Part shown: positions 20,001 to 61,144 of the stretch, piece after piece
Position numbering within the stretch: position 1 is the stretch's first letter
Layout of the letters: each line of letters opens with the position of its first letter
Origin: a virus
Length of the DNA stretch: 64,000 nucleotides
Reading direction: 5' to 3' (one strand)
Virus record (IMG/VR): IMGVR_UViG_3300028581_000011
Location: 121,249-185,248 of that record
Notes under the pieces: model-generated
What the model was told of the DNA's origin: nothing
What the model saw: only the letters and a program-made list of their open reading frames with translations
Database searches by the model: none
Position numbers and translations under genes: made by a program

Positions 20001-23000
20001 AAAATCGATGGGCTTATATGGCTTGCCGGTTATGGCAGCTATCTTGCCTAGCGCAGCCTCTACAACCTGCGCTGGATTTCCACGTGTAATCACGCCCAGA
20101 GGATTAGCCAACACTTCCAGCGGTCGTCCCTGGCTGTCATGCGGCATTTTCTCATCAGGGATGATTCCGGAGATTATGCCCTTATCGCCATATCTGCCAC
20201 TGTTACCACACCATACTGGTTTGCCATTACGTCTAACATACAGTACATGATTTTTAGGCAGGCTCACACAGTACACCTGCCCATTAAAATGAACCCATTG
20301 CTCCTTCTGTCCTAACTGCTTACTACAATGGCCGTGATTGATCTCAGGCTGGTTTTTGCTGCGATAAATTGACACCCAATAGCGTTTGCGGAACCTGTAT
20401 CGACGACCCTTTATGACACCAATTCTACTAGGTTGAAAATCAATATTGGCACTCATACCTAGATGCAAGGCTAATCGTTGAACATCATCTGCCAGTCGTC
20501 GAGACGTGGTGTGATACGCATGTGATGTACCTGTGCAAGAACCATCACCCCACATAAGCCAATCGTACAGTACTTGAAGCGTAGCCCTATCCCAGTTGAA
20601 AACGCTTAATGGGATAAACTTTTGCCAACACTTACCAAACTGACGTAGATGCTGATACCACTGCAGACTGTAAACGCGAATCTTAGTCTTTCGGCTGTGT
20701 TCGCTAAATTTGACACCCATCTGGCGTAACGCACATAGCAGATGTTTGCGACCTGGTTGTTTAATTTGCGTGATATCGAAGCCACAACCATGCCGGCCAG
20801 AATTGAATGTATTGCCTTCAGACAGGAACGCGCCGAGAACAGCTGCGTAAGTCTTCACTGGTACCTTCAATGCCGGGATGACCCTTTTACCGCGACCGCT
20901 CTGACCTGCTTTAACAGTTACAGCCGCTAGCGTCACGAATTTAGGACTACGCCCGATCCATTCGCCGTCACGCTTCAACCGATATCGCTTACCGTACAGA
21001 TGTCTAGCTTCAATTAACGAATAATGCTTACTGTTTCTCGGTTGTGCGTAAAGACTGTGATTGTCAGTGACACACAAACTGACCTGCGTTGTTTCCAAGG
21101 AGTACATAGGCCCGGTGTACGAAAACTGCTGTATTGCCGCCGGTAACAAATACTCTATCTGATTATCGGCTGTAAGTGACGCACAGCGATCACGCGGGGT
21201 TATCGACGAAATCAATTTCCACCCTGTGGCTGTTAGGCACTCCGTATCAGGGCTGTAGCACAGCTTGTCCCCGACTTCGGTGCTAGCTATCGATTTGACA
21301 ACTACAGTGACACCCTTGTCGTTTCGTACGACGTCAGTCACCTCGCCAGGAGAATGGTGGTTCCACAACACACTGGCGTCAGTGAAAGACTTGGCACCCT
21401 TCTTATGCACACGACCATAACTCGGCGTGCGCTCTTGTGCCGCAACTATCAGCGGGTCATCTTCGCTGACGATAGAGCCGGGTCGAACAATGCCGTCGTC
21501 ATCCAGTTGGCCAAGTTGCTTGCGGTCGAACTTCGTTGCAAACAACGAGACAAATGCCTTCTTCCCGACCTTATGAGAATCGCTGGGCTCAAACTTGTGT
21601 TGATACATATGTTCGCTGTCGAGACGCTTGGCAAAGCTCTCTGACACAACATAAGCATCTTCGAAGTTCAATCCACCGAATGGTACGTAGGCAATACGGG
21701 CGTTCTTACCTAACGCCAAAGCACCTGTCTTGTCCGTGGAATTTGTACGTACTAGCAAATCACCCGGCTTGAATACATCACCAGGCTTAACCGTGGCAAA
21801 CTGGTGATGATAGCTCTTACGATTGTTCGGATAATTGTTGTACAGCGGGAAGGTCTGCTTATTGCCATCTTCGTACTGCACTGTCAGTGCGTCAGCTGTG
21901 GCGTCTAGCACACGACCAGCTTTGTCAGAGAATACCGTACCGAGCTTACGAGCATACTCTTCCTCGTAGCTAGCGCCCGGCTTATCCGGCATACCTGACT
22001 GAACCCACGGAGCCTCAGGATCAACAAGATTGAGGGCCTGCGTAATGAACCTGGAGCCCATGACAGTGCGCTGGCCCTTAACCATGCTCTTGAGCGGCAC
22101 TAGATTGCCTAATGGCGACATGGCTTGTTCGAAATGCGGTACGACATAGTCGACATCGCTCTTCTTCACCCACTGCATACGCCCGTTACGCATGGCAACG
22201 ACGCGAGGCAGCTGCGTGTTCATCTCACCTGGAAATGCTATCGTGGAGTTGGCAATGTCTTGTGGCGATCTGTAGACCTGTTTGCCAGTCTTGATGTCGA
22301 CGAATGGTGAGTACAGCTTGCCGCCAGGGCCTTTGCGCGAAGCTCGTGCAAAGTACACATCCACACCGCTACGATAAGACTCAGGAGTACGCAGCGGATC
22401 GACAAAGTTCAGATGCGACGGCTGCACCGTTCGGGCATCTTCTGGCACAGCGTCCATGCTGGACAGACCACCCTCACCCATACGAGTAAGCTTCCATAGC
22501 TTATCGTATATCTCGGCGGAATTAACTTCTTCCAGGTTCTGACCAAGACCAGAGTTCAGCAGCGCTGATTCAAGCTGCTTTCCCAAGGCATTAGCAGGAA
22601 TAGCCGACAAGCCATTCTTGAATGTGGCCCTGTACAGCAGCTTTCTACGCATACCGCCGTAGTCTTTGGCAAGACGCTCAGCAAAGATGTCTTCAGGAGA
22701 ATGCACAGTCTGGAAGGCTAGATGATCACGGTCATCCACTTCCTGCTTACCTTGTGAGATAGCAAGCAGTTTCTTCGTAGTATCCAAAATGGCCGGCAAT
22801 GTCAGTCGATCATACGGCTTTCCGAGCGTAGCTTTTGTGACCTCAGGATCAAGCCGCATGTCTGATAGCGACTTGGCTAGCATCTCACGACGCATGTTGT
22901 CGTCGGCATCAGCTGGAACCCTAGACACAAAACGCTGTACCAGTTTGTGAAGCGCTACCGTCTTATCCGCACCGCTGTTGGCAGCGAGAATATCAGGGCC

Positions 23001-23651
23001 CCACGCTTCATTAAGCATCTTGTCGTCGGCACCCATGGCCCGTAGCAACGGAATCATGGGAATCTTGGCCTGTCCTACGCGGGCGTAAAAGACACCCTTG
23101 GCAGGATCAAGAAAGTAACGATGTGCACGACCTTCACCCGGCAACACGTTAACGTGTGCTTCTATCTCGTTGTTCTCTTTGACACGAGTGAATATACCGG
23201 GTCGCAACCGAAGCTGGCTGGTAAGCGTGTACTCGTTACCACGGAAGATGAATGTGCCTCGTTGTGTCATGTGAGGCACACGAGCTATAGTCATCTTTCG
23301 TTGTTCGACAACTTGATTGTCGGCGGCATTGATGAGTCGCCACGTTCCTCGCAAACGCCTATCCAACGTACCGTTGGTAAGTACGGCCTTCTTCTCTTCA
23401 GCCGGCGTACGTTCCTCGGGGTCAGCGTAATGTACGTCAGCCAGCTGCAAGCTGTAGCGATTGTTAGACAGCGGCTTGAGCTTCTGTGCCGCATCCAAGA
23501 CATTGGCATAAATGCCACGCCGTGTCTGCGCAGGATTACCAAACTCAGCCAGCGTAGTCTCATCAGGCTCTACAAATGCCGGTGGAGCAATCGGCGGCAA
23601 TTCGTCGGCCTGCTTGTCGCACAGAAAAGCATCGTCACTGAAGACACTCAT
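17058..23651 (-). CDS. RNA polymerase beta fused to beta-prime N-terminal half, with two inteins
   Basis: The 2197-residue precursor would give about 1480 residues after splicing. Beta features run from the N-terminus (RGTFIFRGNEYTLTSQL, the fork/lobe region) to the catalytic lysine block VGDKL/SGRYGDKGI split by intein 1. The beta C-terminus (about residues 1270-1420) runs straight into beta-prime, with PVLPPMFRPI and the region before switch 2, where intein 2 sits. The beta-prime active-site triad NADFDGD is at 2103-2109. The protein stops about 80 residues later, well before the bridge helix, which is on the gene at 10246-15660. Multisubunit polymerases with split subunits are known in phiKZ-like phages, but this exact split and fusion is unfamiliar to me. 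It would transcribe phage genes independently of the host enzyme. A modest ribosome site (AGGA, nine bases) precedes ATG. Confidence 0.93.
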   Translation of the reverse strand: MSVFSDDAFLCDKQADELPPIAPPAFVEPDETTLAEFGNPAQTRRGIYANVLDAAQKLKPLSNNRYSLQLADVHYADPEERTPAEEKKAVLTNGTLDRRLRGTWRLINAADNQVVEQRKMTIARVPHMTQRGTFIFRGNEYTLTSQLRLRPGIFTRVKENNEIEAHVNVLPGEGRAHRYFLDPAKGVFYARVGQAKIPMIPLLRAMGADDKMLNEAWGPDILAANSGADKTVALHKLVQRFVSRVPADADDNMRREMLAKSLSDMRLDPEVTKATLGKPYDRLTLPAILDTTKKLLAISQGKQEVDDRDHLAFQTVHSPEDIFAERLAKDYGGMRRKLLYRATFKNGLSAIPANALGKQLESALLNSGLGQNLEEVNSAEIYDKLWKLTRMGEGGLSSMDAVPEDARTVQPSHLNFVDPLRTPESYRSGVDVYFARASRKGPGGKLYSPFVDIKTGKQVYRSPQDIANSTIAFPGEMNTQLPRVVAMRNGRMQWVKKSDVDYVVPHFEQAMSPLGNLVPLKSMVKGQRTVMGSRFITQALNLVDPEAPWVQSGMPDKPGASYEEEYARKLGTVFSDKAGRVLDATADALTVQYEDGNKQTFPLYNNYPNNRKSYHHQFATVKPGDVFKPGDLLVRTNSTDKTGALALGKNARIAYVPFGGLNFEDAYVVSESFAKRLDSEHMYQHKFEPSDSHKVGKKAFVSLFATKFDRKQLGQLDDDGIVRPGSIVSEDDPLIVAAQERTPSYGRVHKKGAKSFTDASVLWNHHSPGEVTDVVRNDKGVTVVVKSIASTEVGDKLCYSPDTECLTATGWKLISSITPRDRCASLTADNQIEYLLPAAIQQFSYTGPMYSLETTQVSLCVTDNHSLYAQPRNSKHYSLIEARHLYGKRYRLKRDGEWIGRSPKFVTLAAVTVKAGQSGRGKRVIPALKVPVKTYAAVLGAFLSEGNTFNSGRHGCGFDITQIKQPGRKHLLCALRQMGVKFSEHSRKTKIRVYSLQWYQHLRQFGKCWQKFIPLSVFNWDRATLQVLYDWLMWGDGSCTGTSHAYHTTSRRLADDVQRLALHLGMSANIDFQPSRIGVIKGRRYRFRKRYWVSIYRSKNQPEINHGHCSKQLGQKEQWVHFNGQVYCVSLPKNHVLYVRRNGKPVWCGNSGRYGDKGIISGIIPDEKMPHDSQGRPLEVLANPLGVITRGNPAQVVEAALGKIAAITGKPYKPIDFETDQDMVKYAMDELAKHGMKDTEDIIDPETGRKIKDVLVGNRFIMKLAHTAESKSQGRGTGGYTSEGSPSKGGETGSKRISLMDTSALLSHGSVGVLQDAMQIRGQRNEDFWLKLMQGHTPTATKVPMVWQKFVSELKGAGINVVPTGSKLQLMALTDKDVDVMAGTRELKTAKTMQLDREGALKPVPGGLFDPSLTGGTDGNRWSFIRLPEVMPSPVMEEPIRRILGLTEQKFLDVLAGKDSLPTGKGPKAIQTALQKLNLDHEIELARAQIHGSKKTARDTAIRKLGYLKSAKELGIHPGDWMISKIPVLPPMFRPISVMQDSNLPLVSDVNYLYKDAFDAVDNLKELQGKVSDVGDERLAVYNTFKAITGLGDPVHPKLQQKRVKGILSRVFGSSPKFGCYDDDTEILTKDGWVKFPELTDDTQVGTLNPDTGAFEWQMTKGVFHWDYDGELFWFGTSRGLDSVVTPNHRNWIRYRRGDVDSADDMEAGWQIERAYMTAANGNRKWFRTAASTWRGHRRRPSFLSKSCRLQDFAAFVGWWAAEGWLGDRKRDCIQLCQAVKHEVKCKEIARLVQSLGIKFSVGKYFRASSKGKTWVWQWSIRSKDLAKWLTTNVRTGSKTKKLSAKIRDWDAPFLKAFFLAYLDGDGTRRYSPRQNGGGVTHKNCGQLLSRHQNAHTISEALAGDIQEIACKLGVTARLRWMPARDEVCQPLCRINLSDSKFVVAEGKKSHKVVNYVGQVHCVSVPNGIVYVRRNGKPFFSGNTVQRRLISTTVDLVGRAVISPNPDLDMDQVAIPEDRAWDIYKNFIVRRLHRKGLNIVEAARQAKERTPTAKKEMLAEMANRPVIINRAPVLHRFGIMAFWPQLTKGKTMQISPLIVKGFNADFDGDAMQFHVPVSEEAKRDAVERMLPSRNLLSPADFKTPVHAPTTEFLGGLYAGTSRAKGKSRVHYMRSQQDAIAAYLRGDLPANAVVEIDQ
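17703..18794 (-). other. Intein 2 (at beta-prime switch 2)
   Basis: 364 residues in frame (precursor 1620-1983). It starts CYDDDTEILTKDGWVKF and ends VHCVSVPNGIVYVRRNGKPFFSGN before Thr. The penultimate residue is Gly rather than His, a variant found in some inteins. LAGLIDADG-like helices FAAFVGWWAAEGWLG and FLKAFFLAYLDGDGTR are present. The flanks SSPKFG and TVQRRLIS join to give a normal beta-prime sequence leading into DLVGRAVIS. Confidence 0.9.
20202..21260 (-). other. Intein 1 (between the two catalytic lysines of beta)
   Basis: 353 residues in frame (precursor 798-1150). It starts CYSPDTECLTATGWKLI and ends VYCVSLPKNHVLYVRRNGKPVWCGN before Ser. LAGLIDADG-like helices YAAVLGAFLSEGN and LYDWLMWGDGSCTG are present. 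The exteins VGDKL and SGRYGDKG rejoin to the highly conserved beta motif carrying both catalytic lysines (E. coli Lys1065 and Lys1073 equivalents). Its C-terminal block resembles that of intein 2 (YVRRNGKP in both). Confidence 0.92.
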
Positions 23652-32630: not shown

Positions 32631-33563
32631 TCAGTCCATCTCGACAGTTGCCGTGTTGTCATCAGGCTGCATGGTGCCAGCTAGCCACTTTCGCAAGCCG
32701 GCTGTCCAAGAGCCGATAGCCGGGCCGTGTAGCGACGTATATCGTTCCGTGTTCAGCGCCGTGTAGCGTGGTATGGGATGCTTGCTATGGAAGGCATTTG
32801 CCGACTGTCGTTGTAGCTTGTTAGAGCAGCCGAGATGCCTTGCCATCATGTCGGCCACAGCATACCAACAGCACAGCTCCTCACCAGCAATATGATATAT
32901 GCCGGGGTCAATAGCGCTGCCCTGATCAACAAACCACAGCAGCGCATTGACGAAGTGCGGGATAAACGTGAGACTTGTAACCACGTCGTCAAATACCGTG
33001 ACAGTCGGTTGTGCCGTCGACTTCAAGGCCGTGTACAACAGGCGAACTGAATTCAGCCTGTATTGTTCGGAGAGTCCGAAGAGAGTTGACGTACGTATGA
33101 TGTAGTATGGTGCGTCGTGTGCGTCACGCATTCGGCGTAACAGTGTGTGCTCTGCCATCGCCTTGCTTATGCCGAAGGCATCGACAGGCCCCACAGGATC
33201 AGCTTCCCAGTAAGGAACCTTGCGGCGTAGATCCAATCCAAAAACATGGCTCGTCGACATCTGGTAAAAGGGGATGTCCCGACGAGCCGCAACGTACGCT
33301 AGATTGTCCACAGCAACTACATTTGTCTCCCACGCATCATTGGTCATCACTTGGTCTGTCGGCGGTGTCAGCAATCCAGCGCAGTTGATGATTGCATCTG
33401 GTCTTACTGCAGCCACCCAACGCCTTACTCGCGTCAAATCTCTGATGTCCAACGCTTCCCGTGTCTTTGGTATGGCCTGTTCACCTAGAGAAAGAACAAG
33501 TGCCTGACCTAACTGTCCCGCTGCTCCGAGAACCAAATATCGTCCACGAGTACCGGCTGTCAT
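32631..33563 (-). CDS. dTDP-4-dehydrorhamnose reductase-like protein (RmlD family)
   Basis: A 310-residue short-chain dehydrogenase of the extended type. GAAGQLG near the N-terminus is the NAD(P)-binding turn and the sequence follows RmlD through SNYVF-like SHVFGLD and RTSTLFG segments. The catalytic YxxxK is changed: residues read FGISKAMAEH, with Phe replacing the Tyr, so it may be a weak or altered enzyme. RmlA and RmlB in the same window supply the upstream pathway steps; no RmlC is visible. GGAGATAG precedes the ATG. A sigma70-type promoter is upstream at 33639-33666. Confidence 0.7.
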   Translation of the reverse strand: MTAGTRGRYLVLGAAGQLGQALVLSLGEQAIPKTREALDIRDLTRVRRWVAAVRPDAIINCAGLLTPPTDQVMTNDAWETNVVAVDNLAYVAARRDIPFYQMSTSHVFGLDLRRKVPYWEADPVGPVDAFGISKAMAEHTLLRRMRDAHDAPYYIIRTSTLFGLSEQYRLNSVRLLYTALKSTAQPTVTVFDDVVTSLTFIPHFVNALLWFVDQGSAIDPGIYHIAGEELCCWYAVADMMARHLGCSNKLQRQSANAFHSKHPIPRYTALNTERYTSLHGPAIGSWTAGLRKWLAGTMQPDDNTATVEMD

Positions 33564-45007: not shown

Positions 45008-46318
45008 TCAATCCAACGTTTGGATCTTATCGCCGGTCCAACGCAGATCATTAACTTCGTGCTCTTCAGCCGTCGGACCTCGACCGAATACGACACACGG
45101 AACACCCAGCCTGTCTGCAATCAATTTAGGCAAGTCGCTAACATGGACGACTGCCAGGTGTGGTTCTTGCATAGCTACTTCCTCGCACAACGCCGACAAC
45201 CGTACGAGGTTACCATCACGATGTAGATGAACCTTACCCGGCTGTCTGTACTGGTAGCACACCGACGTGGTATCAGTACGAAATTGATCCAGGCAATTGA
45301 CGGCGACACCGTGCAACTGTCCGTCGAGAATCCATTTGGAGTAACGTAGCAGTGGCAAGTCCAGCCAGCCGCAACGTAACTTACCTTGCCACGGATTCTC
45401 GACATTGCAAGGATCACTCATGCTGTCACTAAGCTCTGCACTGTAAGATGGCAAAGGCCCATCGCCGTGTCGGGTTGTGTAACATCTTGTCACACCGATT
45501 ACAGAATATAGCGTGCCAGGCTTCATTGCTATCATCGAAAGTGCCCTGGCAGGCGTAACGTCCGACCACGTCGTATGCGGATGAAAGCCATAACGCTCAT
45601 CCAGCAACAGTCCCTGAGAACCCTCGAATATGACGGTGCTACAATTTGGAAGACCGGGCTGTTGTCTTAGCTTGCATGCTATCGGCCACAGACGATGCAA
45701 TACGGCATCGGCAGGTTCATCCAATTGCTCACGCCATTCCCGCACAGGCGTCGGAAGACTTCCGGTTGCGGGCAGCACCTGCCTGGCCAACTCCAGACAT
45801 CTGAGTCGTATGCCTTCAATTGACGTCAACAGCCAGTCTCGATTTTTCGGCCGATCAAACTGTGTCAGACACAGTTTAAGACCGTCGAGCTCAAGTCTTC
45901 TGGCTTCGCCGACGCCCATCCCACATGATCCGTGACGGACTGCTCGTCGTGATTCGATAATTCGATTCAGCGACCTGTGGTATGGCAGTATGATGCCACA
46001 ATTCGGGTCGACAGACAGCATGCTGAACGGGTCTGCGATTTTGAGGGATTCGAGATGCCTAGCCTCCTCCTGCATAGCGCCCAGGTCCAGCCACATGCCG
46101 CTAGCCAGGTGCGTGTGGATGCCGTCCAACGTGCACGAACCAAACTGTGAGAAGACATGTGAGCTACCGTCGCTGAGTTGTACTCGATGCCCTGCCTGAG
46201 GACCACCGCTGAAGCGCACAACAAGATCAGCTCCGATCCTACGGCCTATCGACTGAGTGACAACGCCTTTTCCCTCATCACCAAAGCCCAGGCCAATAAC
46301 GACTACAGCACGCAACAT
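45008..46318 (-). CDS. Adenylosuccinate synthetase (PurA-like)
   Basis: A 436-residue protein. The ATG at 46318 has AAGGA eight bases upstream; the frame extends upstream into a terminator hairpin, so a longer start is unlikely. GFGDEGKG is the P-loop with the catalytic Asp of PurA retained, and GGPQAGH is the GGxNAGH-like segment with its catalytic His. The IMP loop is different (HGSCGMGVGEARR instead of TTGRGIGPAYE). It would convert IMP and Asp to adenylosuccinate in purine synthesis, or a related substrate. Phage PurZ enzymes for dZ-DNA are said to lack this Asp; here it is kept, so ordinary PurA chemistry is more likely. Confidence 0.8.
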   Translation of the reverse strand: MLRAVVVIGLGFGDEGKGVVTQSIGRRIGADLVVRFSGGPQAGHRVQLSDGSSHVFSQFGSCTLDGIHTHLASGMWLDLGAMQEEARHLESLKIADPFSMLSVDPNCGIILPYHRSLNRIIESRRAVRHGSCGMGVGEARRLELDGLKLCLTQFDRPKNRDWLLTSIEGIRLRCLELARQVLPATGSLPTPVREWREQLDEPADAVLHRLWPIACKLRQQPGLPNCSTVIFEGSQGLLLDERYGFHPHTTWSDVTPARALSMIAMKPGTLYSVIGVTRCYTTRHGDGPLPSYSAELSDSMSDPCNVENPWQGKLRCGWLDLPLLRYSKWILDGQLHGVAVNCLDQFRTDTTSVCYQYRQPGKVHLHRDGNLVRLSALCEEVAMQEPHLAVVHVSDLPKLIADRLGVPCVVFGRGPTAEEHEVNDLRWTGDKIQTLD

Positions 46319-46340
46319 AATGTTATCCTTGTTAAGGCGC

Positions 46341-46385
46341 ATAGAAGAAACGAGCTGGTCCGCCCTGCGTAGAACGGACCAGCTC
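46341..46385 (-). terminator. Hairpin terminator
   Basis: An 11-bp perfect stem (GAGCTGGTCCG / CGGACCAGCTC at 46352-46362 and 46375-46385), 12-base loop, then GTTTCTTCT on the minus strand. It lies after the gene at 46407-47738. Confidence 0.75.
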
Positions 46386-46406
46386 ATATTACGACAGACT
46401 GCCTAT

Positions 46407-49590: not shown

Positions 49591-50628
49591 TTACATCTCC
49601 AACGCCAGATACTTTTTGGGCCCGAACACAGATTCGAGCACTGTGTAGTACTCGTCACATAAGGCCCAGGCTGATTGAGGACGCATGGCTGGTTGAGTGA
49701 ACAGGCAGCTCATCCAGAATCTGATAAGCGTCGGCGGCACCTGAGATCCAAAAGATATCGGTGGCTTACCGTCCCAGCCCGATAACCAAGCAATGGTGGC
49801 GATGGCTAGATATATGTCTAGCGCCGGACTCGCAGGCTGAGCCAGAGATAACTCTGGCAACGGATACCAGGGTTTGAAGGCAGCAGGCACAGTGACTAGA
49901 GGCTTACCTATAGACACCGAATGCGTCCAACCCAGCAAGATAGCGCCATGATTCTCTGCATGGAACATGATGTGCGGCGGCAATACAGCGCCGTGTGCCA
50001 AGCCCTGTTTGTGCACATAGCCTAACCCCTGCAATAGACGACCACACATCCAAGCCAAATGTCTGGCGTCAAGCACAGGGTGTTTGTCCTTGATAGCCGC
50101 TGCCGAATAGAATCCGTCGCGAGCTTTGAAGACACTGACGCGACGCTGCACATTGTTATCGTCCTTGATGAGAAAATCGGCCACCGGCTGCGGAAAGCAC
50201 TGCAGATAGAAGCCAGATGCGTTCTCAGCCAGCAAGGACTTAATGGTCTGCATCTCCTGCTGCAGCATGTCGTTGCCGTCCTTTGTCACCGACATTTTGA
50301 CGACAACAGGAATGGTGCTGCCGTCTGCCTGCGAGCAATCTGCTGCATACACGTCAGAAACATCACCACGCCCGAGTCTTGTCTTCAACGTGTAGGTAGC
50401 GCCTTTGGCGCGAAGGACTGGTTCTGGTTCACCGGCACTCAGTTGTTGCCAGTATGCTTGCAGTATCGTAAAGATACGTGTTGCATATTCCTTATCCTGC
50501 TCTTCCTGAAACCGGTCAGGATGGCAAAGCAGGCTGAATTCGCGATAGGTCTTATCTGGTTGATCACCAAATAAGACCTTGGCGCTAACAGCGCTGTTCA
50601 GTAGTGCCTCTAGTTCTAATATTGTCAT
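49591..50628 (-). CDS. J-domain fused to a pseudokinase-like protein
   Basis: A 345-residue protein. Residues about 1-65 are a J domain with YREFSLLCHPDRF, including the His-Pro-Asp of the DnaK-binding loop. Residues about 75-330 follow a protein kinase fold: LGRGDVSDVYAADC (glycine loop) and VVVKMS (the Lys). The catalytic HRD is HGAVLPPHIM and the DFG position reads LGWTHS, so it is a pseudokinase. It may bring DnaK to a target or bind ATP without catalysis. It lies next to RyR and VWA genes. Confidence 0.7.
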   Translation of the reverse strand: MTILELEALLNSAVSAKVLFGDQPDKTYREFSLLCHPDRFQEEQDKEYATRIFTILQAYWQQLSAGEPEPVLRAKGATYTLKTRLGRGDVSDVYAADCSQADGSTIPVVVKMSVTKDGNDMLQQEMQTIKSLLAENASGFYLQCFPQPVADFLIKDDNNVQRRVSVFKARDGFYSAAAIKDKHPVLDARHLAWMCGRLLQGLGYVHKQGLAHGAVLPPHIMFHAENHGAILLGWTHSVSIGKPLVTVPAAFKPWYPLPELSLAQPASPALDIYLAIATIAWLSGWDGKPPISFGSQVPPTLIRFWMSCLFTQPAMRPQSAWALCDEYYTVLESVFGPKKYLALEM

Positions 50629-50635
50629 TCCTTGC

Positions 50636-51154
50636 TCAATTGGCAGAAAAGGGTTGGACTGATTTAACGGAAAAGCTTGTGTTGTCGTCTAGGCCAGCGC
50701 ACAGCAGCTTGCCAAACGCATTAGCCAGTTCTGTACCCTGGACATGGCCGGTGCCACAGATGAAGACACCGTAGGGTCTGTTACGGAAATTAGCTTCGAT
50801 ATCGACTGGCTCTGTTGTGGCTTCGGACAACATCATCGATACCTTGTCCATTGGGCAACGCTCTCTGTTCAAAACCACCAACAGAGCGAGAGGCGGGTTC
50901 AATTCTACGTCCAGCTGTTCTTGCGACAGGCGAATAACCTGCATGAATGGACGACCTGCCTCGTCGTACAAGTCTGTGTCATCAGGGAACAACTCAGACT
51001 CGACCTCAATCATCTTGCGCACAGCCTTGACGTTATGCAAAAGCATACAGTACAAGGTCTGGTCACATACGAGTTGCAAAACATGCTCCCGCAAGACATC
51101 AATGTCGTTACAGGAGACGCAACGAACAACACCACTGAGTTCGAACCAGCGCAT
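50636..51154 (-). CDS. Protein of unknown function
   Basis: A 172-residue protein, mostly helical with acidic middle (EVESELFPDDTDLYDEAG) and a beta C-terminus. It overlaps the RmlA start. No domain recognised. Confidence 0.55.
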   Translation of the reverse strand: MRWFELSGVVRCVSCNDIDVLREHVLQLVCDQTLYCMLLHNVKAVRKMIEVESELFPDDTDLYDEAGRPFMQVIRLSQEQLDVELNPPLALLVVLNRERCPMDKVSMMLSEATTEPVDIEANFRNRPYGVFICGTGHVQGTELANAFGKLLCAGLDDNTSFSVKSVQPFSAN

Positions 51155-52041
51155 TACTTAGTCCCCATATCGAACAAGACCTTGCGAAGGTAGTCTGTAT
51201 AGCTGCAACGACGAGTGCTTATTAGGCTCTGAATGGCCTGCTTGTTAATCCAGCCCAGTCTGAAGGCTATCTCCTCAACACAACCAATCAATAGCCCTTG
51301 GCGTTGCTGCACTGTTTGTACGAACGTACTTGCTTGTAGCAGTGCATCCGCTGTGCCTGTATCGAACCACGCCGAACCTCGGCCAAGTGGCTCAACTCGC
51401 AATGCTCCGTCATGCATGTAGGACTTGTTAAGGTCTGTGATCTCTAGCTCATTACGTGCCGATGGTACAAGCTTTTCGGCACGCGATGTTGCAGTGTTGT
51501 CGTAGAAATACAAACCCGTCACTGCCAAAAACGACTTCGGTAAGATGGGCTTTTCTTCAATAGAGATCGGCCAGCCCTTAGCATCTAACTCGACAACTCC
51601 GTAGCGTTGCGGGTCTTGCACTGGTTGTGACAAAACCACAGCGCCGTCTACGCAGAATGCGATGTTACGTAGACGACGCTGTAGCCCTTGCCCGTAAAAG
51701 ATGTTGTCGCCAAGTATCAACGCAACGCGGCTGTTGTTGATGAACTCCTTGCCGATGATCAACGCCTGCGCAATTCCAGCTGGCTGCGCTTGTACTGCGT
51801 AGCTGATGTTGAGGCCAAACTGAGCGCCAGTATCCAACAGTAGTTGAAAGGAAACGCTATCACGAGGTGTGCTGATAATCAGGATGTCCCGTATGCCGGC
51901 CAACATCAAGGTAGACAGCGGATAGTAGATGAGCGGCTTGTCGTACACTGGCAACAACTGCTTGCTCACCACCTCTGTCATAGGCCACAGTCGCGTCCCT
52001 GCTCCGCCCGCCAGAATGATGCCCTTTGTTGTCATTGCCAC
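51154..52041 (-). CDS. rmlA: Glucose-1-phosphate thymidylyltransferase
   Basis: A 295-residue protein. GIILAGGAGTRLWPMTEVVSKQLLPVYDKP is the complete RmlA N-terminal nucleotide-binding motif, and LGDNIFYGQGLQ and FDTGTADALLQA follow. It makes dTDP-glucose from glucose-1-phosphate and dTTP, the first step to dTDP-rhamnose. It overlaps the gene after. Start is GTG at 52041 with GGGAG upstream; an ATG two codons on is possible. The family is about 290 residues long. Confidence 0.93.
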   Translation of the reverse strand: MAMTTKGIILAGGAGTRLWPMTEVVSKQLLPVYDKPLIYYPLSTLMLAGIRDILIISTPRDSVSFQLLLDTGAQFGLNISYAVQAQPAGIAQALIIGKEFINNSRVALILGDNIFYGQGLQRRLRNIAFCVDGAVVLSQPVQDPQRYGVVELDAKGWPISIEEKPILPKSFLAVTGLYFYDNTATSRAEKLVPSARNELEITDLNKSYMHDGALRVEPLGRGSAWFDTGTADALLQASTFVQTVQQRQGLLIGCVEEIAFRLGWINKQAIQSLISTRRCSYTDYLRKVLFDMGTK

Positions 52042-52052
52042 TGTTTTGCTCC

Positions 52053-53126
52053 CTACGTTGAAGTACTAAGCCCTAATCTACGTCCGTCGTACTGCTGTCT
52101 GGCAGCTTTCACCCAGTCCTTATTGTCCGCATACCACTCCAGGGTTGTTATGAGGCCGATGCCGTGCGGTATGCTGTTGTTCCATCCTAGCTCGTACATT
52201 GCAGCACTGTTCATCGAGTATTCAAAGTCGTGACCGGGTCTGTCCTCCACAAAGGTAAGCAGATTCTTGTGCGGAGTTCCGAACCAGTCGCGCCTATCTA
52301 GCAGCTTGCATATGTCATTAAGCAAGCTGTAATTTGTCCTGTTGTACTGTGCGCCGATGTTGTAGTGTGTGCCTGGAACACCTTTCTCCAGCAATAGCTG
52401 TAATGCTGTGCAGTGGTCATAGACATGCAGCCATTCGCGTCGTTGTAGGCCGGAGCCGTACACAGGTATTTTCTTGTTCTCCAGGCCATTACAAATCGCC
52501 ATCGGTATCAGCTTCTCCGGAAACTGATACGGGCCATAAGTATTGGCTCCGTGCGTAACGATTGTCGGCAGCCCGTACGTCTTGAAAAAGGCATCTGCCA
52601 GATGATCACCAGCAGCCTTAGAGGCCGAGTATGGCGATCCCGTGTGGTAGATGTCTCGTGACTCCGCTGGTGGCAAGGTATACCTGCTACCAAAGACCTC
52701 GTCTGTAGATACCTGAACAAACCTGAACTCAGGCAGTTCCTTACTGTATCGTTGCCAGTACCGTTTGACCTCCGTCAGCAGAGCTGCCAGATCAACAACG
52801 TTTGTTTCGATAAACGGCGACATGTCATCAATCGATCTGTCGACATGCGTCTCTGCTGCAAAGTTGATGACAGCCGTTGGCCTATAGGTGTCAAAGATCG
52901 TTTCTACTAACGTCTGCTTACCGATAGTGCCCTTTACAACGTGCAGTCTAGCGTCTGCACTAAGCCGTTGCACCGTGATCGGATTACAGGCATAGGTCAT
53001 TGCGTCTAACACAACGACTCTGTGCGAGTCGTCGTGACGACTCAACCAGTACTGGATGAAGTTCGAGCCTATGAAGCCCAAGCCTCCAGTCACGAATAGC
53101 GTTTTGGCTTTACTAGGTTCGGACAT
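52053..53126 (-). CDS. rmlB: dTDP-glucose 4,6-dehydratase
   Basis: A 357-residue extended short-chain dehydrogenase with GGLGFIGSNFI for NAD, ETHVDRSI, VSTDEVFG and YSASKAAGDHL (catalytic Tyr and Lys intact). It makes dTDP-4-keto-6-deoxyglucose from the RmlA product. A later Tyr-Gly-Pro-Tyr and HVYDHC fit the family. The ATG has no Shine-Dalgarno sequence; the palindrome ends one base before it. Confidence 0.93.
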   Translation of the reverse strand: MSEPSKAKTLFVTGGLGFIGSNFIQYWLSRHDDSHRVVVLDAMTYACNPITVQRLSADARLHVVKGTIGKQTLVETIFDTYRPTAVINFAAETHVDRSIDDMSPFIETNVVDLAALLTEVKRYWQRYSKELPEFRFVQVSTDEVFGSRYTLPPAESRDIYHTGSPYSASKAAGDHLADAFFKTYGLPTIVTHGANTYGPYQFPEKLIPMAICNGLENKKIPVYGSGLQRREWLHVYDHCTALQLLLEKGVPGTHYNIGAQYNRTNYSLLNDICKLLDRRDWFGTPHKNLLTFVEDRPGHDFEYSMNSAAMYELGWNNSIPHGIGLITTLEWYADNKDWVKAARQQYDGRRLGLSTST

Positions 53127-53831: not shown

Positions 53832-53876
53832 GAAAAACCAAGGGCCGCAGCTCATTGATAGAACTGCGGCCCTTGG
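53832..53876 (-). terminator. Strong terminator of the ubiquitin-like operon
   Basis: Perfect 13-bp stem (CCAAGGGCCGCAG / CTGCGGCCCTTGG) with 13-base loop, then TTTTT on the minus strand. It lies just after the E1 gene. Confidence 0.95.
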
Positions 53877-53895
53877 ATACACGCCGTAACAGCTA

Positions 53896-54648
53896 CTAGT
53901 GCGCAGAAGACGCCAATGCCGGTTCGGTATCGTCGTCCGTGTCTTCATCATCATTGTCGTTCTCGACGGGGCCTTCGCCCAAGCTGTCGTCCAACAACGT
54001 CATAAGCAGGTCGGGACTCAGCGGAATGTCACGCAAGTAGCGCGTGAGCTGATGTACCATCATGCTGGCAGTGATGTTGGCCGCGTAGATGGTGCTACGC
54101 GCCGTGCAACGACCCTGCTCAGCCTCTTCAGCCGCGAACAGCGTTGACTCATAGCGCGTGCGATCCATCGGCGTGCTGGTCAGCACGCGCAACGTTTCGC
54201 CGAGCATACGGCCATCGATCATGGTGACATTGAACTGCTTGCAGCTCTCGTGCAGAAGTTCACGAATCTCAATGCTGTCCACACACGTAAACATGACGTG
54301 GATGGGCTTCTTGTTCGTACGAGCATTGAGAAGCAATACGTCACTGAAGCGGCCATCAACAGTGGCCACAGACAGCGAAGGATCCAAAGCTATCATATCG
54401 GAGGCCGTGGCTACAACCTTCTTCTGCTGCAGCTGATCGTACCGATAGCCCTGCGTTGTCACATTGGTTTCCTCGACAATGTCGAAGTCCACCAACATGA
54501 CGTTAGAAGCGCCGATAGCCGCCAGCTGCAATGCAACTGAGCGACCGACAGCGCCAACGCCAACTATCATGATGTTCGTCTCAAGCAGCTTGTCATGCGG
54601 CACGAGCCCGGCTTGACGCTCAAAACGATCTTTTGCCTTTGTCGTCAT
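53896..54648 (-). CDS. E1-like (ThiF-family) activating enzyme
   Basis: A 250-residue protein of the ThiF/MoeB/E1 type. RFERQ near residue 8, GVGAVG (30-35) in the nucleotide-binding fold, LVDFDIVEETNVTTQGY with the ATP-binding acidic and Asn residues, VDS (123-125) and a candidate catalytic Cys in GRCTARS (C181) are present. The C-terminal 35 residues are acidic and low complexity. It would adenylate the C-terminus of the Ubl encoded at 57584-57871 and pass it to the E2. GAGGGA precedes ATG. It is the last gene of the operon and is followed by a terminator. Confidence 0.88.
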   Translation of the reverse strand: MTTKAKDRFERQAGLVPHDKLLETNIMIVGVGAVGRSVALQLAAIGASNVMLVDFDIVEETNVTTQGYRYDQLQQKKVVATASDMIALDPSLSVATVDGRFSDVLLLNARTNKKPIHVMFTCVDSIEIRELLHESCKQFNVTMIDGRMLGETLRVLTSTPMDRTRYESTLFAAEEAEQGRCTARSTIYAANITASMMVHQLTRYLRDIPLSPDLLMTLLDDSLGEGPVENDNDDEDTDDDTEPALASSAH

Positions 54649-54681
54649 CAGAAATCCCTCATTCCTTAGGGGTTGTACAAG

Positions 54682-56052
54682 TTAGTCAATGGCCAGCGTT
54701 GCGGCACGGTCAAGTGCTTCGTTCATCTGCACATCTTCAACAACGGCAATGTCGTCAGGCTTTGGTGCCTCTACGTCTGCCGGTGCAACCTTGTCGTCAA
54801 ACTGCTTGGTGTTCCAAATACCGTACATGGCCAACCAAGCTTCGGAAGTTCTAGACGGCACTTGCATGCCGTGTATGCGTGCCCACTCCTCGATGGCGCT
54901 GAGTTCGTAAGCACTGAGCCCAAGGCTCCACGCTCCGCGATTACCCGGCCACAGTGCCGGCTTTGTCTCATTACCGGTCACACGTGCGGAAGGCTGGTTT
55001 CGCCAGTCACTGACGAGACCTGATGAGCCGGACGTAGGCTGACCGGTAACGAAATTCATAGCCGGTGTGGTCGAGGGAATTGCACTAACAGCGGCATGAG
55101 CCGATACGGGAGTAGGCGGGATAATTGCGTGGCCCGTATAGCCGGACACCATTGGTTCGGCAGCCCGTGAACGTGCAGCCTCTGCCCAGGCGTCATGTCC
55201 ATGAGCCGTCTGCGAGCTGTAGGACGACTGATAGCCATAGTTGCCTTGGTTAACGCTATGATCGTGATAGTGCCGTGTGTAGTACGAAGACATACCGTCA
55301 GTGCTGTAATTCGTTGGATACTGCACTACCGACGCGCACTTCGTAACACAGCGAGTGTACTCTGCCTGCCACGCGGCAACATCCTGGCTGCCACCAGTGG
55401 CCGACCAGTCAACCGACACAGGCAGCTCCGTAGAGAAGCCAGGGCCGACGTTGAAGCGCAATCGCGCATACGTTTCATGGCCACGACCGACAACCATCAT
55501 GACGCCCCAGTGACACGGCCCGAGACATTCAAGGAACGTAGTCTCATCCGTGCCACTCGGAGTCACGCCACTGCCTGGATGCGTATGGATCCAGATACGG
55601 CCACAACGCTCAGGGCCAATGCCCTCAGCCCCGCAGTCGAGAAGATAGTCGGCCACGGCGTCATCATCAAACTTGGTCGAAGCCATGCTGACTCGCTGCT
55701 TGACCAGTCGTACCTCGCGGATCAACAACAACTGTGTAGCATCCGAAATACCCCACATGCCGACTTCGTCAGATGACGAGTGAAGCATGTGTAGCAACTT
55801 GGCCCAAGCGCTAGGTGCAAAACGCAAACCGGCCAACTTCGGCCAGTCATTACTAGTGCCCATAGGCATATAGGTGCTTGATGCAGCTGCGATAGACGGG
55901 CCTGCAAAACCCGTCACAGTTCGAGGCTGAACAAGCGGCCCGTTGTTGGTTTGCCGGATGTTTGTGACCTTATTGATGATGCCGTCCTCTTTGGTTTTGT
56001 TGTTTCGCACTCTGACTGTCGCATCGCTAAACCGCGTCTTCTTCCTTGACAT
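54682..56052 (-). CDS. JAB/JAMM metallopeptidase of the ubiquitin-like operon
   Basis: A 456-residue protein from the ATG at 56052 (AGAGG upstream); an ATG at 56094 overlapping the E2 stop is also possible. E96 (in DEVGMWG) and the HTHPGSGVTPSGTDETTF segment (His156, His158, Ser166, Asp169) form the JAMM zinc site. In ubiquitin-like systems such peptidases mature the Ubl or remove it from targets. The region before the domain is Ser/Ala-rich and the 220 residues after it are low complexity (Ala/Pro/Ser/Tyr) of unknown role. It probably trims the Ubl C-terminus. Confidence 0.85.
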   Translation of the reverse strand: MSRKKTRFSDATVRVRNNKTKEDGIINKVTNIRQTNNGPLVQPRTVTGFAGPSIAAASSTYMPMGTSNDWPKLAGLRFAPSAWAKLLHMLHSSSDEVGMWGISDATQLLLIREVRLVKQRVSMASTKFDDDAVADYLLDCGAEGIGPERCGRIWIHTHPGSGVTPSGTDETTFLECLGPCHWGVMMVVGRGHETYARLRFNVGPGFSTELPVSVDWSATGGSQDVAAWQAEYTRCVTKCASVVQYPTNYSTDGMSSYYTRHYHDHSVNQGNYGYQSSYSSQTAHGHDAWAEAARSRAAEPMVSGYTGHAIIPPTPVSAHAAVSAIPSTTPAMNFVTGQPTSGSSGLVSDWRNQPSARVTGNETKPALWPGNRGAWSLGLSAYELSAIEEWARIHGMQVPSRTSEAWLAMYGIWNTKQFDDKVAPADVEAPKPDDIAVVEDVQMNEALDRAATLAID

Positions 56053-56090
56053 AGCCATCCTCTGCAGGAGATTGAGTAATACCTTGAACA

Positions 56091-57464
56091 TCATACGCTC
56101 GCGGTTGAAGCTACTGCTGTCGGCAAGCAGTCAGGGCAGAAATAGAATCCCTCGTGCAATACCAGGTCAGATCTTAATCGTGATGCTTCGCAAGCAGCAC
56201 AGATCATCATGCCACGCGGCGCTGCGGGCTGAGTGGTACCACGCATCCGATCAGTAACAGGCGCTGTGGCGATAGTTGGTGCAACGGGCACCGCAGGTGT
56301 CGGATAACCAATTGGCCGTAGTACCGGTGTCGGTGATGCCGGTGGAAGGATTTGCCACGTAACCTCGGACGCAGGGGCTGGCGTGGCTGGGACAGGTATT
56401 ACGCTGGCAACCTGAGCAATCTGTGCTTCACGAGCTGCTCTTCGTGCAGCAGCCTCTGCTTGCAACACCCTGTAGCAAGACGGGCACTTGCATCCACTAC
56501 GCGTGACGATGACATCAGCACGAGCCACAGCACAGCCACACTTAGAGCAAGTGTGTATACAGCCTTGGCAATATCGATGCCCATCAACTTCTCGCAAGCC
56601 AGCTGCGGCATGAGTGGCGCAGAATACTTTGTTGCAGTTTTCACCTTCACAGCGAACAGCACAGCCGCCACAAAGATGGGTGCTGCACGTTACGCAACGA
56701 CTATGCTCAGCCGGTACACGTCCACGGCAACCGGAACAACGCTCACCAAGCCACTGATCCAAGTTGCGATATGCCTGACCACGGGCGTAGGTGTGCAACA
56801 CAGTGTCGGCTATTTCGACGATATCACCAAAGCGCAGCTCAGACGCGGCGCCGTTGAATGCCGTCAGGCCTTCGCCAAAACACAGACGATTGTGATTAAC
56901 GTGCGGGTGTATGAGTCCATGCGACTCCACAGGCCAACGATCCTCGTCAGAAGTGTAGATGGACACATGTCCTCCAGGTGTAACTACAATCCACAGTTCG
57001 CCCATGACGTACTTCTCGCTAGCCACGGTAAACGAGATTTCGTCTGTTCGAACTGCTATGCCTTTCATAGGCACGTTCCAAAATACGCGATTAGGCCTAG
57101 CTGAACGTAAGGCCAGCAGATCGTGAACTATGTCGACGCACGTAGCCTGAAACGTGCTACTGGTTTGTTGTTTGATAAATGGATTGCCACCACGCCACGT
57201 GGACACATGGCTGATGACATTCGGCAACTTGTCAAGCAGCGCCTTCATGACGACAGGCACATCGCCGCTTGGATTACGTCGGCCAAATCGGCCAAGAATG
57301 CTTCGTGCCTCGGCGCCCAGCCGAGTGAGCTTTAGCAACGCTATTACGTCGTTAGTCTGCAATTTGAACTGACGACAACCGGCAGCCACCGCGCGCGTTG
57401 CAAATCGTACGATCAATGATTCGGTAAGCGGCACATAATCCGTGGGCCGCACATAGTCACTCAT
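56091..57464 (-). CDS. E2-like conjugating enzyme fused to zinc-finger domains
   Basis: A 457-residue protein. Residues about 125-230 look like the E2 core: FWNVPMKGIAV, GELWIVVTPGGHVSIY, and GLIHPHVNHNRLCFGEG with a His-Pro motif and Cys195 as the likely thioester cysteine. Residues about 243-330 have many Cys pairs (CSGC, CVTC, CGGC, CSKC, CPSC), a RING- or treble-clef-like zinc cluster, and a further LIM/ribbon-like pair of Cys at the C-terminus (CAAC, CPDC). Such a fusion could give E2 and E3-like function in one chain. AAGGAG precedes ATG. The JAMM gene start overlaps its stop. Confidence 0.75.
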   Translation of the reverse strand: MSDYVRPTDYVPLTESLIVRFATRAVAAGCRQFKLQTNDVIALLKLTRLGAEARSILGRFGRRNPSGDVPVVMKALLDKLPNVISHVSTWRGGNPFIKQQTSSTFQATCVDIVHDLLALRSARPNRVFWNVPMKGIAVRTDEISFTVASEKYVMGELWIVVTPGGHVSIYTSDEDRWPVESHGLIHPHVNHNRLCFGEGLTAFNGAASELRFGDIVEIADTVLHTYARGQAYRNLDQWLGERCSGCRGRVPAEHSRCVTCSTHLCGGCAVRCEGENCNKVFCATHAAAGLREVDGHRYCQGCIHTCSKCGCAVARADVIVTRSGCKCPSCYRVLQAEAAARRAAREAQIAQVASVIPVPATPAPASEVTWQILPPASPTPVLRPIGYPTPAVPVAPTIATAPVTDRMRGTTQPAAPRGMMICAACEASRLRSDLVLHEGFYFCPDCLPTAVASTASV

Positions 57465-57494
57465 CAGTTGACTCCTTTTTATTGCACAAACACA

Positions 57495-57530
57495 AACACC
57501 CTGGGTGGCAAAATTACCACCCAGGGTGTT
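57495..57530. terminator. Hairpin between Ubl and E2 genes
   Basis: A 14-bp perfect stem (AACACCCTGGGTGG / CCACCCAGGGTGTT) with an eight-base loop. On the minus strand it is followed by TGTGTTTG. It may end most transcripts after Ubl, leaving less E2, JAMM and E1. It could also work on the plus strand (TTTTTA follows). Confidence 0.8.
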
Positions 57531-57583
57531 TTTAGGTTAGATCAACAGGTCCGCAAAATGCGGACTGGTCTTACGACCCTGGC

Positions 57584-57871
57584 TTAGCAGGCGCCTTCGA
57601 CCTTCGTCGGGGTAATGCTGATACGGTCGCCGTTCTGCAACACGAAGCCGGCTTCGATCGGGTTTTCGGGGCCACCGAAGGTGACCTCGGCGCGACGGAT
57701 CCGCTTCATGTAGTTGGCGGGGATCTGTCGGTCGCCGATCTGGGTGGCGAAGAAGGTGGCGATGGTCGTGCCTTCGGGGATGGAAATCCAGTTGGCATAG
57801 CCTTCGCCGCCGTTGTTGACGAACAGGACGCGGATGGCCGGGGTGGAAGCGCTGTTGATGTCGTTGGACAT
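57584..57871 (-). CDS. Ubiquitin-like (beta-grasp) modifier
   Basis: A 95-residue protein. After a polar start, IRVLFVNNGGEGYANWISIPEG is a beta hairpin, then a helix (TIATFFATQI) and strands ending in LQNGDRISITPTKVEGAC. This is the order and shape of ThiS/MoaD/ubiquitin-like proteins. The C-terminus is Gly-Ala-Cys; cleavage after Gly93 by the JAMM peptidase would expose a terminal Gly. GAGAGG is nine bases before ATG. Codon use is G+C-rich, so it may be the most expressed gene of the operon. Confidence 0.8.
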   Translation of the reverse strand: MSNDINSASTPAIRVLFVNNGGEGYANWISIPEGTTIATFFATQIGDRQIPANYMKRIRRAEVTFGGPENPIEAGFVLQNGDRISITPTKVEGAC

Positions 57872-59533: not shown

Positions 59534-60089
59534 AGTATGACCCGCCCACGTGTTGTAGTTTTGCTGTATCCTTTAGTGCAGACAACCACAGTTCATGGTC
59601 GCTGCCCCAAGCCGGATCCACTAGATCCAGTTCCTCTTCGCCAAACAGATGGCATCGAACATGGTGGCAATTGCCCAACACATTGGCAACGTCACCATGC
59701 CGCTCTAGCCGGAAGTACCGCAGGACTTTCCAGTTGCTTACGAACAACCGAATACATGCAAACACTTCGCGCAACGTAGGCGAGAATATCAACGGTGTTG
59801 AGAAGCCGTGAAAGGTCATGATGCGCGTGCTGTTAAGCCCGAACGGATAGACCTTTATCAGCCGCCCGAGTTTCGGATTGCTTGTATAGTCACAGTCAGG
59901 ACTAATGCCTTGTGAGTTGACAAGACACAGTCTTGAGCGACCCTGACCTTTTATGTGCACAGGAAGCAGCGGATATATGGCCTCCTGTAAAACACGCGTC
60001 TGTGCATCGTTCAGCGTTGGCACTAACTTCAGTTTGCACCTGTCGCTGAACGATATGTTTGTTTGCTGATCTACCGTTGGTTGTAGCAT
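59523..60089 (-). CDS. Protein of unknown function
   Basis: A 188-residue mixed protein, with NSQGISPDCDYTSNP and several beta strands. It overlaps the upstream stop as ATG. Not recognised. Confidence 0.55.
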   Translation of the reverse strand: MLQPTVDQQTNISFSDRCKLKLVPTLNDAQTRVLQEAIYPLLPVHIKGQGRSRLCLVNSQGISPDCDYTSNPKLGRLIKVYPFGLNSTRIMTFHGFSTPLIFSPTLREVFACIRLFVSNWKVLRYFRLERHGDVANVLGNCHHVRCHLFGEEELDLVDPAWGSDHELWLSALKDTAKLQHVGGSYYVE

Positions 60090-61144
60090 CAGAGAAGTAC
60101 AGGCCGAGTCAACGGGATTTTCAGAATCTTGACAGGCTCAGAACGACGCCAGCGATTCCAAGCCACGATGCACAGCCGAAACAGCATCTCATCTGACATC
60201 AGTCGAGCCGATTGCTTGAGCATAGCCGACTTGTTGTTGCGAGGATTGAATGTTCGTTCCAGCAGCTTACGTAGCTGGTAACGAGCATCTGAACGATCCG
60301 TTACGCCAATACCCTCGGCCACTGGTCGCCAGAAGTCGTCTACGACGTCAGGAGCCTTGGCAAATGTGGCAAACATAGCCGCTGATACAGGCATCCTGTC
60401 AAAAGCGCGACTCTCTTTGGATAAGTCCTGTCCGAGACGACCCACGGCATTGAATAGGTCGGAATATTGCGATTCAACCTGCGCAGTGCCTTGTTCAGGG
60501 GTAAGCCGATAGCGAATGTCCTCCTGAGGGTACATCCACAATCGAAATGCCGAGTACAGCTTAACCAGCCGGTTGATAGCAATACCTTCCGCACACGGCT
60601 GGCCTATAAGAATGTTCTTTGCACGCTGGGACAAGGTGCGCGGCTTGCAAGCGTCGTACGTATTGTACAGCTGTCGAAGCTGTTCTTCTTTCTGTACACG
60701 ATACACGACTTCACGAACACGTGCTGCAAAGCCCTCAGGCATATAAGCCACGGCCCAACACGTATGCTGTCCGTTGGTCTTGTAGCAAGTAGAACCAAGC
60801 CATGCCTTGGCAATGATGACGTTAGTCCAGTTGAACTCGTCGCGCTTCATCTTGTCCAGCAAGTCCTGCACATGTGCCGTGCTAACAGCTCGTTCGCCAG
60901 GCAAGATAGGCAGATCGATGTACTCGGCTGCCTTCTTCATATCGAGCCGTACGTGCTGGTCCGAGACTATCTCGTACTCAAGCGGAGTTGCAGGGCCGGT
61001 CATGATCGGCTCTGTGCGCACGGACGGTATCTTCTGATTGTTGTTCTGCAGATTGAGCTGCTCAGCCGTGTGTGTCGTCCTGGCTGTAACAGGTATCACT
61101 GTGCTGAGAATAGCTGCGCGTCTGGATGTGTTTCGTTTGGCCAC
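60089..61144 (-). CDS. ParB-like N-terminal domain protein
   Basis: A 351-residue protein from a GTG with GAGGG upstream. VSTAHVQDLLDKMKRDEFNW and then KTNGQHTCWAVAYM follow the ParB/Srx-type fold, in which NGQH replaces the usual GxHR nucleotide-binding motif. The C-terminal 200 residues are helical. Roles in this family range from partition to regulation and nuclease or nucleotide binding; it has no partner ParA in the window. Confidence 0.6.
   Translation of the reverse strand: MAKRNTSRRAAILSTVIPVTARTTHTAEQLNLQNNNQKIPSVRTEPIMTGPATPLEYEIVSDQHVRLDMKKAAEYIDLPILPGERAVSTAHVQDLLDKMKRDEFNWTNVIIAKAWLGSTCYKTNGQHTCWAVAYMPEGFAARVREVVYRVQKEEQLRQLYNTYDACKPRTLSQRAKNILIGQPCAEGIAINRLVKLYSAFRLWMYPQEDIRYRLTPEQGTAQVESQYSDLFNAVGRLGQDLSKESRAFDRMPVSAAMFATFAKAPDVVDDFWRPVAEGIGVTDRSDARYQLRKLLERTFNPRNNKSAMLKQSARLMSDEMLFRLCIVAWNRWRRSEPVKILKIPLTRPVLL

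Follow-up and report, generated by a model that had tools for sequence, protein, structure and literature searches.

Ubiquitin-like (Ubl) conjugation systems of bacteria are known as host defences or as plasmid cassettes of unknown purpose. The Bil (BilABCD) defence operon has four components, in the order Ubl-E2-JAMM-E1, and Bil-type systems modify phage tails. The ThiS, MoaD and CysO proteins are sulfur carriers with a C-terminal thiocarboxylate. The PRTRC cassette of the Polaromonas plasmid pPNAP01 runs ParB-E-C(Ubl)-F-B(E2)-A(JAMM)-ThiF, which amounts to Ubl-F-E2-JAMM-E1, and its Ubl ends in a glycine (AVGAKG). In BilD, the E1 of Bil, there are two adenylation domains, one inactive and one active (PMC11354881). 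In sulfur pathways, too, a JAMM and an E1 are found together with a small beta-grasp protein (PMC1779556).

The cassette described here lies in the window, the 64 kb of DNA analysed, which is the last part of a 185,248-base virus record. It probably encodes a phage-borne Ubl conjugation pathway, a reading given a probability of about three in four.

The four genes and their transcription signals

The cassette consists of four open reading frames on the minus strand, in transcription order a 95 amino acid Ubl candidate (57584..57871), a 457 amino acid E2 candidate (56091..57464), a 470 amino acid JAMM metallopeptidase (54682..56094) and a 250 amino acid E1 (53896..54648). The original prediction, made from the sequence of the window, had these genes, their order and their coordinates correct. 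The last three are tightly packed, with a 4 bp overlap between the E2 and JAMM genes and a gap of 33 bp between those for the JAMM and the E1, and there is a good ribosome site just 5' of the start of the E2 frame. The strong terminator predicted to follow the E1 gene is real; a terminator scan finds a 16-pair stem, 11 pairs of it G-C, followed by TTTTT at 53838..53876 on the minus strand, closing the operon. A second hairpin, overlooked in the original prediction, is found by terminator scan between the Ubl and E2 genes (57494..57531, minus strand; 17 pairs with a weak T tail). It is possible that this is an attenuator, which would give more Ubl mRNA than enzyme mRNA.

The E1 is certain from its sequence. 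It contains a single ThiF stretch at residues 18 to 208, matching Pfam PF00899 at 1.3e-27, and it matches a profile built from other phage E1s at 5e-36. Cys181 (codon 54106..54108, minus strand), which had been proposed as the active residue, aligns with the active-Cys column of ThiF/MoeB-type proteins and of all the phage E1s compared, and is taken as the putative catalytic residue. The only other cysteines are Cys122 and Cys136, and the CxxC...CxxC zinc pairs of the MoeB/ThiF type are absent. In the NLQRQ of the E1 core, the conserved Arg after the Asn is a Thr in the window E1, and this position is altered too in the group of crAss-like phages and PhiXhv. An alignment of phage E1s was too varied to serve for scanning.

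There is a good case from the sequence for the 470 amino acid protein as a JAMM, as had been suggested. The signature is complete, with Glu110, His170, His172, Ser180 and Asp183, the last four falling in HTHPGSGVTPSGTD at residues 170-183. The match to Prok-JAB (PF14464) is weak, at 0.0071 and below the cut-off, and that to a profile built from the JAMMs of other phages is 9e-5, as a single-target E-value. The original prediction had called for a profile search of each protein; this supports the E1, places the JAMM below the Pfam cut-off and gives no match for the E2 or Ubl candidates. Neither these two nor the JAMM has a match in a sequence search of the PDB.

It is strongly suggested that the 457 amino acid protein is an E2, on the basis of a motif, its place in the gene order and a low-confidence model. 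The protein carries HPHVNHNRLCFG at residues 186-197, reading HPHV-NHNRL-Cys195-FG, at the place of the 'HPN...C' of E2 enzymes, with Cys195 as the putative catalytic residue (codon 56880..56882, minus strand). None of 20,000 shuffled versions of the protein contained the motif, and neither did any other open frame in the window. The single-sequence model of residues 95-240 has the alpha-4beta-loop-alpha order of E2 elements at low confidence (pLDDT 41), and a fold search with it gave no significant match, E2 enzymes but also frataxins being among the weak matches. A family search, and a search with profiles of the phage relatives, matched nothing. C-terminal to the E2 domain (about residues 100-240) come eight CxxC pairs, spanning 243-330 and 422-446. 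This zinc-finger tail could possibly act as an E3; its match to the TFIIH p44 RING has an E-value of 2.5, which is at chance level.

The 95 amino acid protein has no family, BLAST or fold match. Its model has the strand order b-b-a-b-b with a pLDDT of 47, and the fold search was not significant. It is regarded as a Ubl, presumably of beta-grasp fold, because of its place 5' of the E2, its size, its codon bias and its Gly-Ala-Cys end. The Ubl occupies this position in PRTRC as well as in the phage cassettes elsewhere. Third-position G+C in this gene is 0.85, against 0.50-0.68 in the E2, JAMM and E1 genes, as would fit a highly expressed modifier. The tail reads ISITPTKVEG93-AC, and the precursor is likely to be trimmed after Gly93, judging by this sequence. 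Of the beta-grasp Ubl that had been predicted, the location stands, and the family, BLAST and fold searches give the beta-grasp fold no support.

The carrier phage and related cassettes

The record is a phage, as the original prediction had supposed, of the large tailed kind and distantly related to Salmonella phage Arash, with core proteins 25-36% identical. Identity to Arash is 32-34% for the terminase, 25% for the portal and 36% for the capsid protein. The RNA polymerase beta-like protein shows 31% identity to its counterparts in Arash and in the Vibrio phages D69, D148 and D181. This protein (2197 amino acids, window 17058-23651) has two apparent inteins, one at about 794-1150 and the other ending near 1988. 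The terminase (G000:C1:53585-57025; L010:14585-18025) has an in-frame insertion of about 1.5 kb near residue 148 that is probably an intein. Elsewhere in the window, an adenylosuccinate synthetase family protein is encoded at 45008-46387; phage genes of this type (PurZ) can serve 2-aminoadenine DNA. The product of a gene at 49591-50628, 3 kb from the cassette, matches DnaJ weakly and, further along, a protein kinase, with neither score reaching its Pfam cut-off. RmlA-, RmlB- and RmlD-like genes of a dTDP-rhamnose type pathway are present just downstream of the cassette (51154-53126) and at 32631-33563.

None of the collections searched yielded a close relative of the cassette in the window. 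In IMG/VR no close relatives were found of the window E2, JAMM, Ubl or E1, nor of its RNA polymerase or the PhiXhv E1. More distant relatives are found by tblastn with the window E1, which at 25-30% identity reaches Flavobacterium FpV phages, crAss-like phages and the jumbo phages of Xanthomonas and Erwinia. In the gene order of the window, these loci encode a small protein in which a Gly is conserved, an E2-motif protein, a JAMM (except in PhiXhv) and an E1. The order Ubl-E2-JAMM-E1 is seen in Kolpuevirus, bajarodcaudo virus, cr126_1, Dulem virus 41 and FpV4, and also in crAss001, Arash, D69, D181 and IMG/VR contigs of 172-183 kb. In crAss001 the annotation is hypothetical for both gp79 and gp78, metalloprotease-domain protein for gp77 and ThiF for gp76; with labels of this kind, 'ThiF' or 'hypothetical protein' for instance, the phage cassettes go unrecognised.

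The likeness of the crAss001 (gp79-gp76) and FpV cassettes to that of the window is in gene order and in the E1, which is 22-26% identical with the same invariant residues. Unlike in the window, the Ubl has a C-terminal extension fused after a conserved Ser-Gly, the E2 carries YMHSH...CxG and the cassettes are within the replication module, those of the crAss phages adjoining primase and uracil-DNA glycosylase genes. Compared as profiles, the Ubl and E2 of the crAss phages gave no score against those of the window. In cr106_1 (L018:105-1308) the Ubl gene is interrupted by an HNH endonuclease gene, which lies between a first part ending KIKSGKF-stop and the remainder of the extension. A plasmid of Lysinibacillus (L028:4075-8835) has JAMM and ThiF genes in a row with those for two subunits of DNA polymerase III, one of them gamma/tau, giving cassettes of this kind another tie to replication. 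By identity, the E1 closest to that of the window is in Xanthomonas phage PhiXhv and Erwinia phage Ep032, at 28%. Their E2-like protein has a Cys-rich tail as in the window, with the motif IHPHM...CLGS; unlike in the window, no JAMM is seen and the Ubl candidate already ends in Gly-Gly.

Among the phages tested, Arash and D69 are the nearest by core genes, and both have an E1 in a same-order cassette. The Arash-type phages (the gp246-gp250 region of Arash, Vibrio phages D69 and D181, and the IMG/VR contigs) have terminase, portal, capsid, RNA polymerase and cassette order in common with the window. Their E1, however, is PRTRC-like and only about 15-21% identical to that of the window, there are two extra genes between the Ubl and the E2, the E2 is without the zinc tail, and the Ubl consists of one to three units ending TGTKG. 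Within this group the JAMM matches PRTRC_A at 1.8e-21 and the E1 matches PRTRC_ThiF at 7e-15, with weak matches of the E2 to PRTRC_B (0.0057) and Prok-E2_D (0.024). No Arash-type JAMM was found in bacterial genomes.

The Ubl frame of Arash (L023:10014-10214, minus strand; 66 amino acids, ending TGTKG) is missing from the GenBank record, where gp251c is annotated over it in another frame. In D69 and D181 there are three head-to-tail units, each ending TGTKG (L024:8795-9586 and L025:10418-11206). A JAMM is present at six IMG/VR loci; each of these has a TGTKG Ubl, and at five of them an E1 was recognised from its motif. Two of the contigs have double units ending TGTKG (L039:2573-2962 and L040:2507-2947) and the others a single one. 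From their sequence, the tandem units would be a processed, polyubiquitin-like precursor. For Arash, Gp246-249 and Gp251 are given in Table 2 as proteins of purified particles. The numbering of that table disagrees with the 'structural' labels in GenBank, and 116 proteins were found in all, so the suggestion that these proteins are packaged was set aside.

The proposed pathway and its alternatives

In the proposed pathway, the JAMM would trim Ala-Cys from the Ubl precursor to expose Gly93, which the E1 would adenylate before taking the Ubl onto Cys181. The Ubl would be handed to Cys195 of the E2, the zinc-finger tail of which may help to choose or bind the substrate, and the JAMM might also take the tag off again. 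The Ubl gene would be transcribed the most, with the hairpin that follows it restraining the enzyme genes. The pathway would act during infection, tagging host or phage proteins. Recurrence in unrelated large phages, together with retention across the Arash-type phages, suggests that it most likely serves the phage during infection.

Conjugation is favoured over sulfur transfer alone because an E2 candidate adjoins the E1. As a sulfur carrier, the small protein would be charged with a thiocarboxylate by the E1 and JAMM for tRNA thiolation or a metabolite, and the 457 amino acid 'E2' would be some other protein. The best-scoring named models for the window E1 are indeed ThiF and MoeB, and the gene combination is known from sulfur pathways (PMC1779556). 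This role is nevertheless made less likely by the E2 candidate and the gene order, an E2-motif protein being present in conjugation order in every relative examined. Added to this, no sulfur or thiamine genes were found adjoining the cassette, the E1 is without the zinc pairs of MoeB and ThiF, and the tandem Ubl units of the Arash-type phages fit processing for conjugation. Sulfur transfer is therefore very unlikely. Equally improbable is that only the E1 and JAMM are what they seem and that the other two are unrelated phage genes with no conjugation. The absence of any profile backing the Ubl or E2 candidate would suit this, but the E2 motif is in the right place, the fusion to a Cys-rich tail is shared by the window phage and PhiXhv, and the gene order is repeated in independent phages.

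The cassette could also be a captured anti-phage conjugation system, tagging the tail or capsid parts of rivals or warding off host defences. This overlaps with the main reading and is unlikely, if less so than the foregoing. The tail modification of Bil-type systems and their Ubl-E2-JAMM-E1 order speak for it. Against it are the single-domain E1, which is unlike BilD, the PADLOC results, in which the window E1 matches 'E1-E2' models through its ThiF core and nothing beyond, and the location of the crAss cassettes by primase and uracil-DNA glycosylase rather than in a defence-like region. Movement of a plasmid PRTRC cassette into the phage seems quite unlikely. The pPNAP01 cassette has a matching order and the Arash-type relatives score with PRTRC models, but the window E1 reaches only 18.0 bits with the PRTRC_ThiF model, for a cut-off of 144.75, and the Ubl, E2 and JAMM match no PRTRC model. 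The gene upstream of the cassette (60089-61144) has no ParB model match, and the absence of a BLAST match to PRTRC ParB rules out a PRTRC-type ParB adjoining the cassette; no F or E gene was seen.

A phage Ubl conjugation pathway is therefore the preferred reading. A broader proposal, which is finely balanced, is that large lytic phages, crAss001 among them, have repeatedly and independently retained complete pathways of this kind, in some cases with tandem precursors resembling polyubiquitin, as a means of reprogramming host or phage proteins during infection. No Ubl pathway is mentioned in the openly searchable main texts about crAss001, about crAss-like genomes or about Arash; subscription papers may differ. 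The owner of the cassette is here a phage, in several unrelated lineages, and since crAss001 and Arash have been isolated in culture, what phages tag, and why, becomes testable.

Relation to the Bil and PRTRC cassettes

Kinship to Bil-type operons had been part of the original prediction and is not supported. The window cassette is not Bil because its 250 amino acid E1 has one ThiF domain rather than the two of BilD, and the other window proteins are without a Bil relation detectable by PADLOC.

With PRTRC the window shares the Ubl-(F)-E2-JAMM-E1 order and an E2-like stretch around the Cys, which in PRTRC is FNVWSQGKVCTG. It differs in that no ParB, E or F gene was found and in the zinc-finger tail of the window E2. 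In the E1 tree, Arash and D69 group with PRTRC (100/98), whereas the window E1 is outside PRTRC, weakly with the crAss, FpV and PhiXhv group (73/74); the test does not reject a grouping of the two (p 0.25). On this placement, the window cassette is laid out like those of its phage relatives, but its E1 may come from another source. Gene order and the Arash relatives nevertheless point to PRTRC-like cassettes as the nearest organised relatives of the window cassette.
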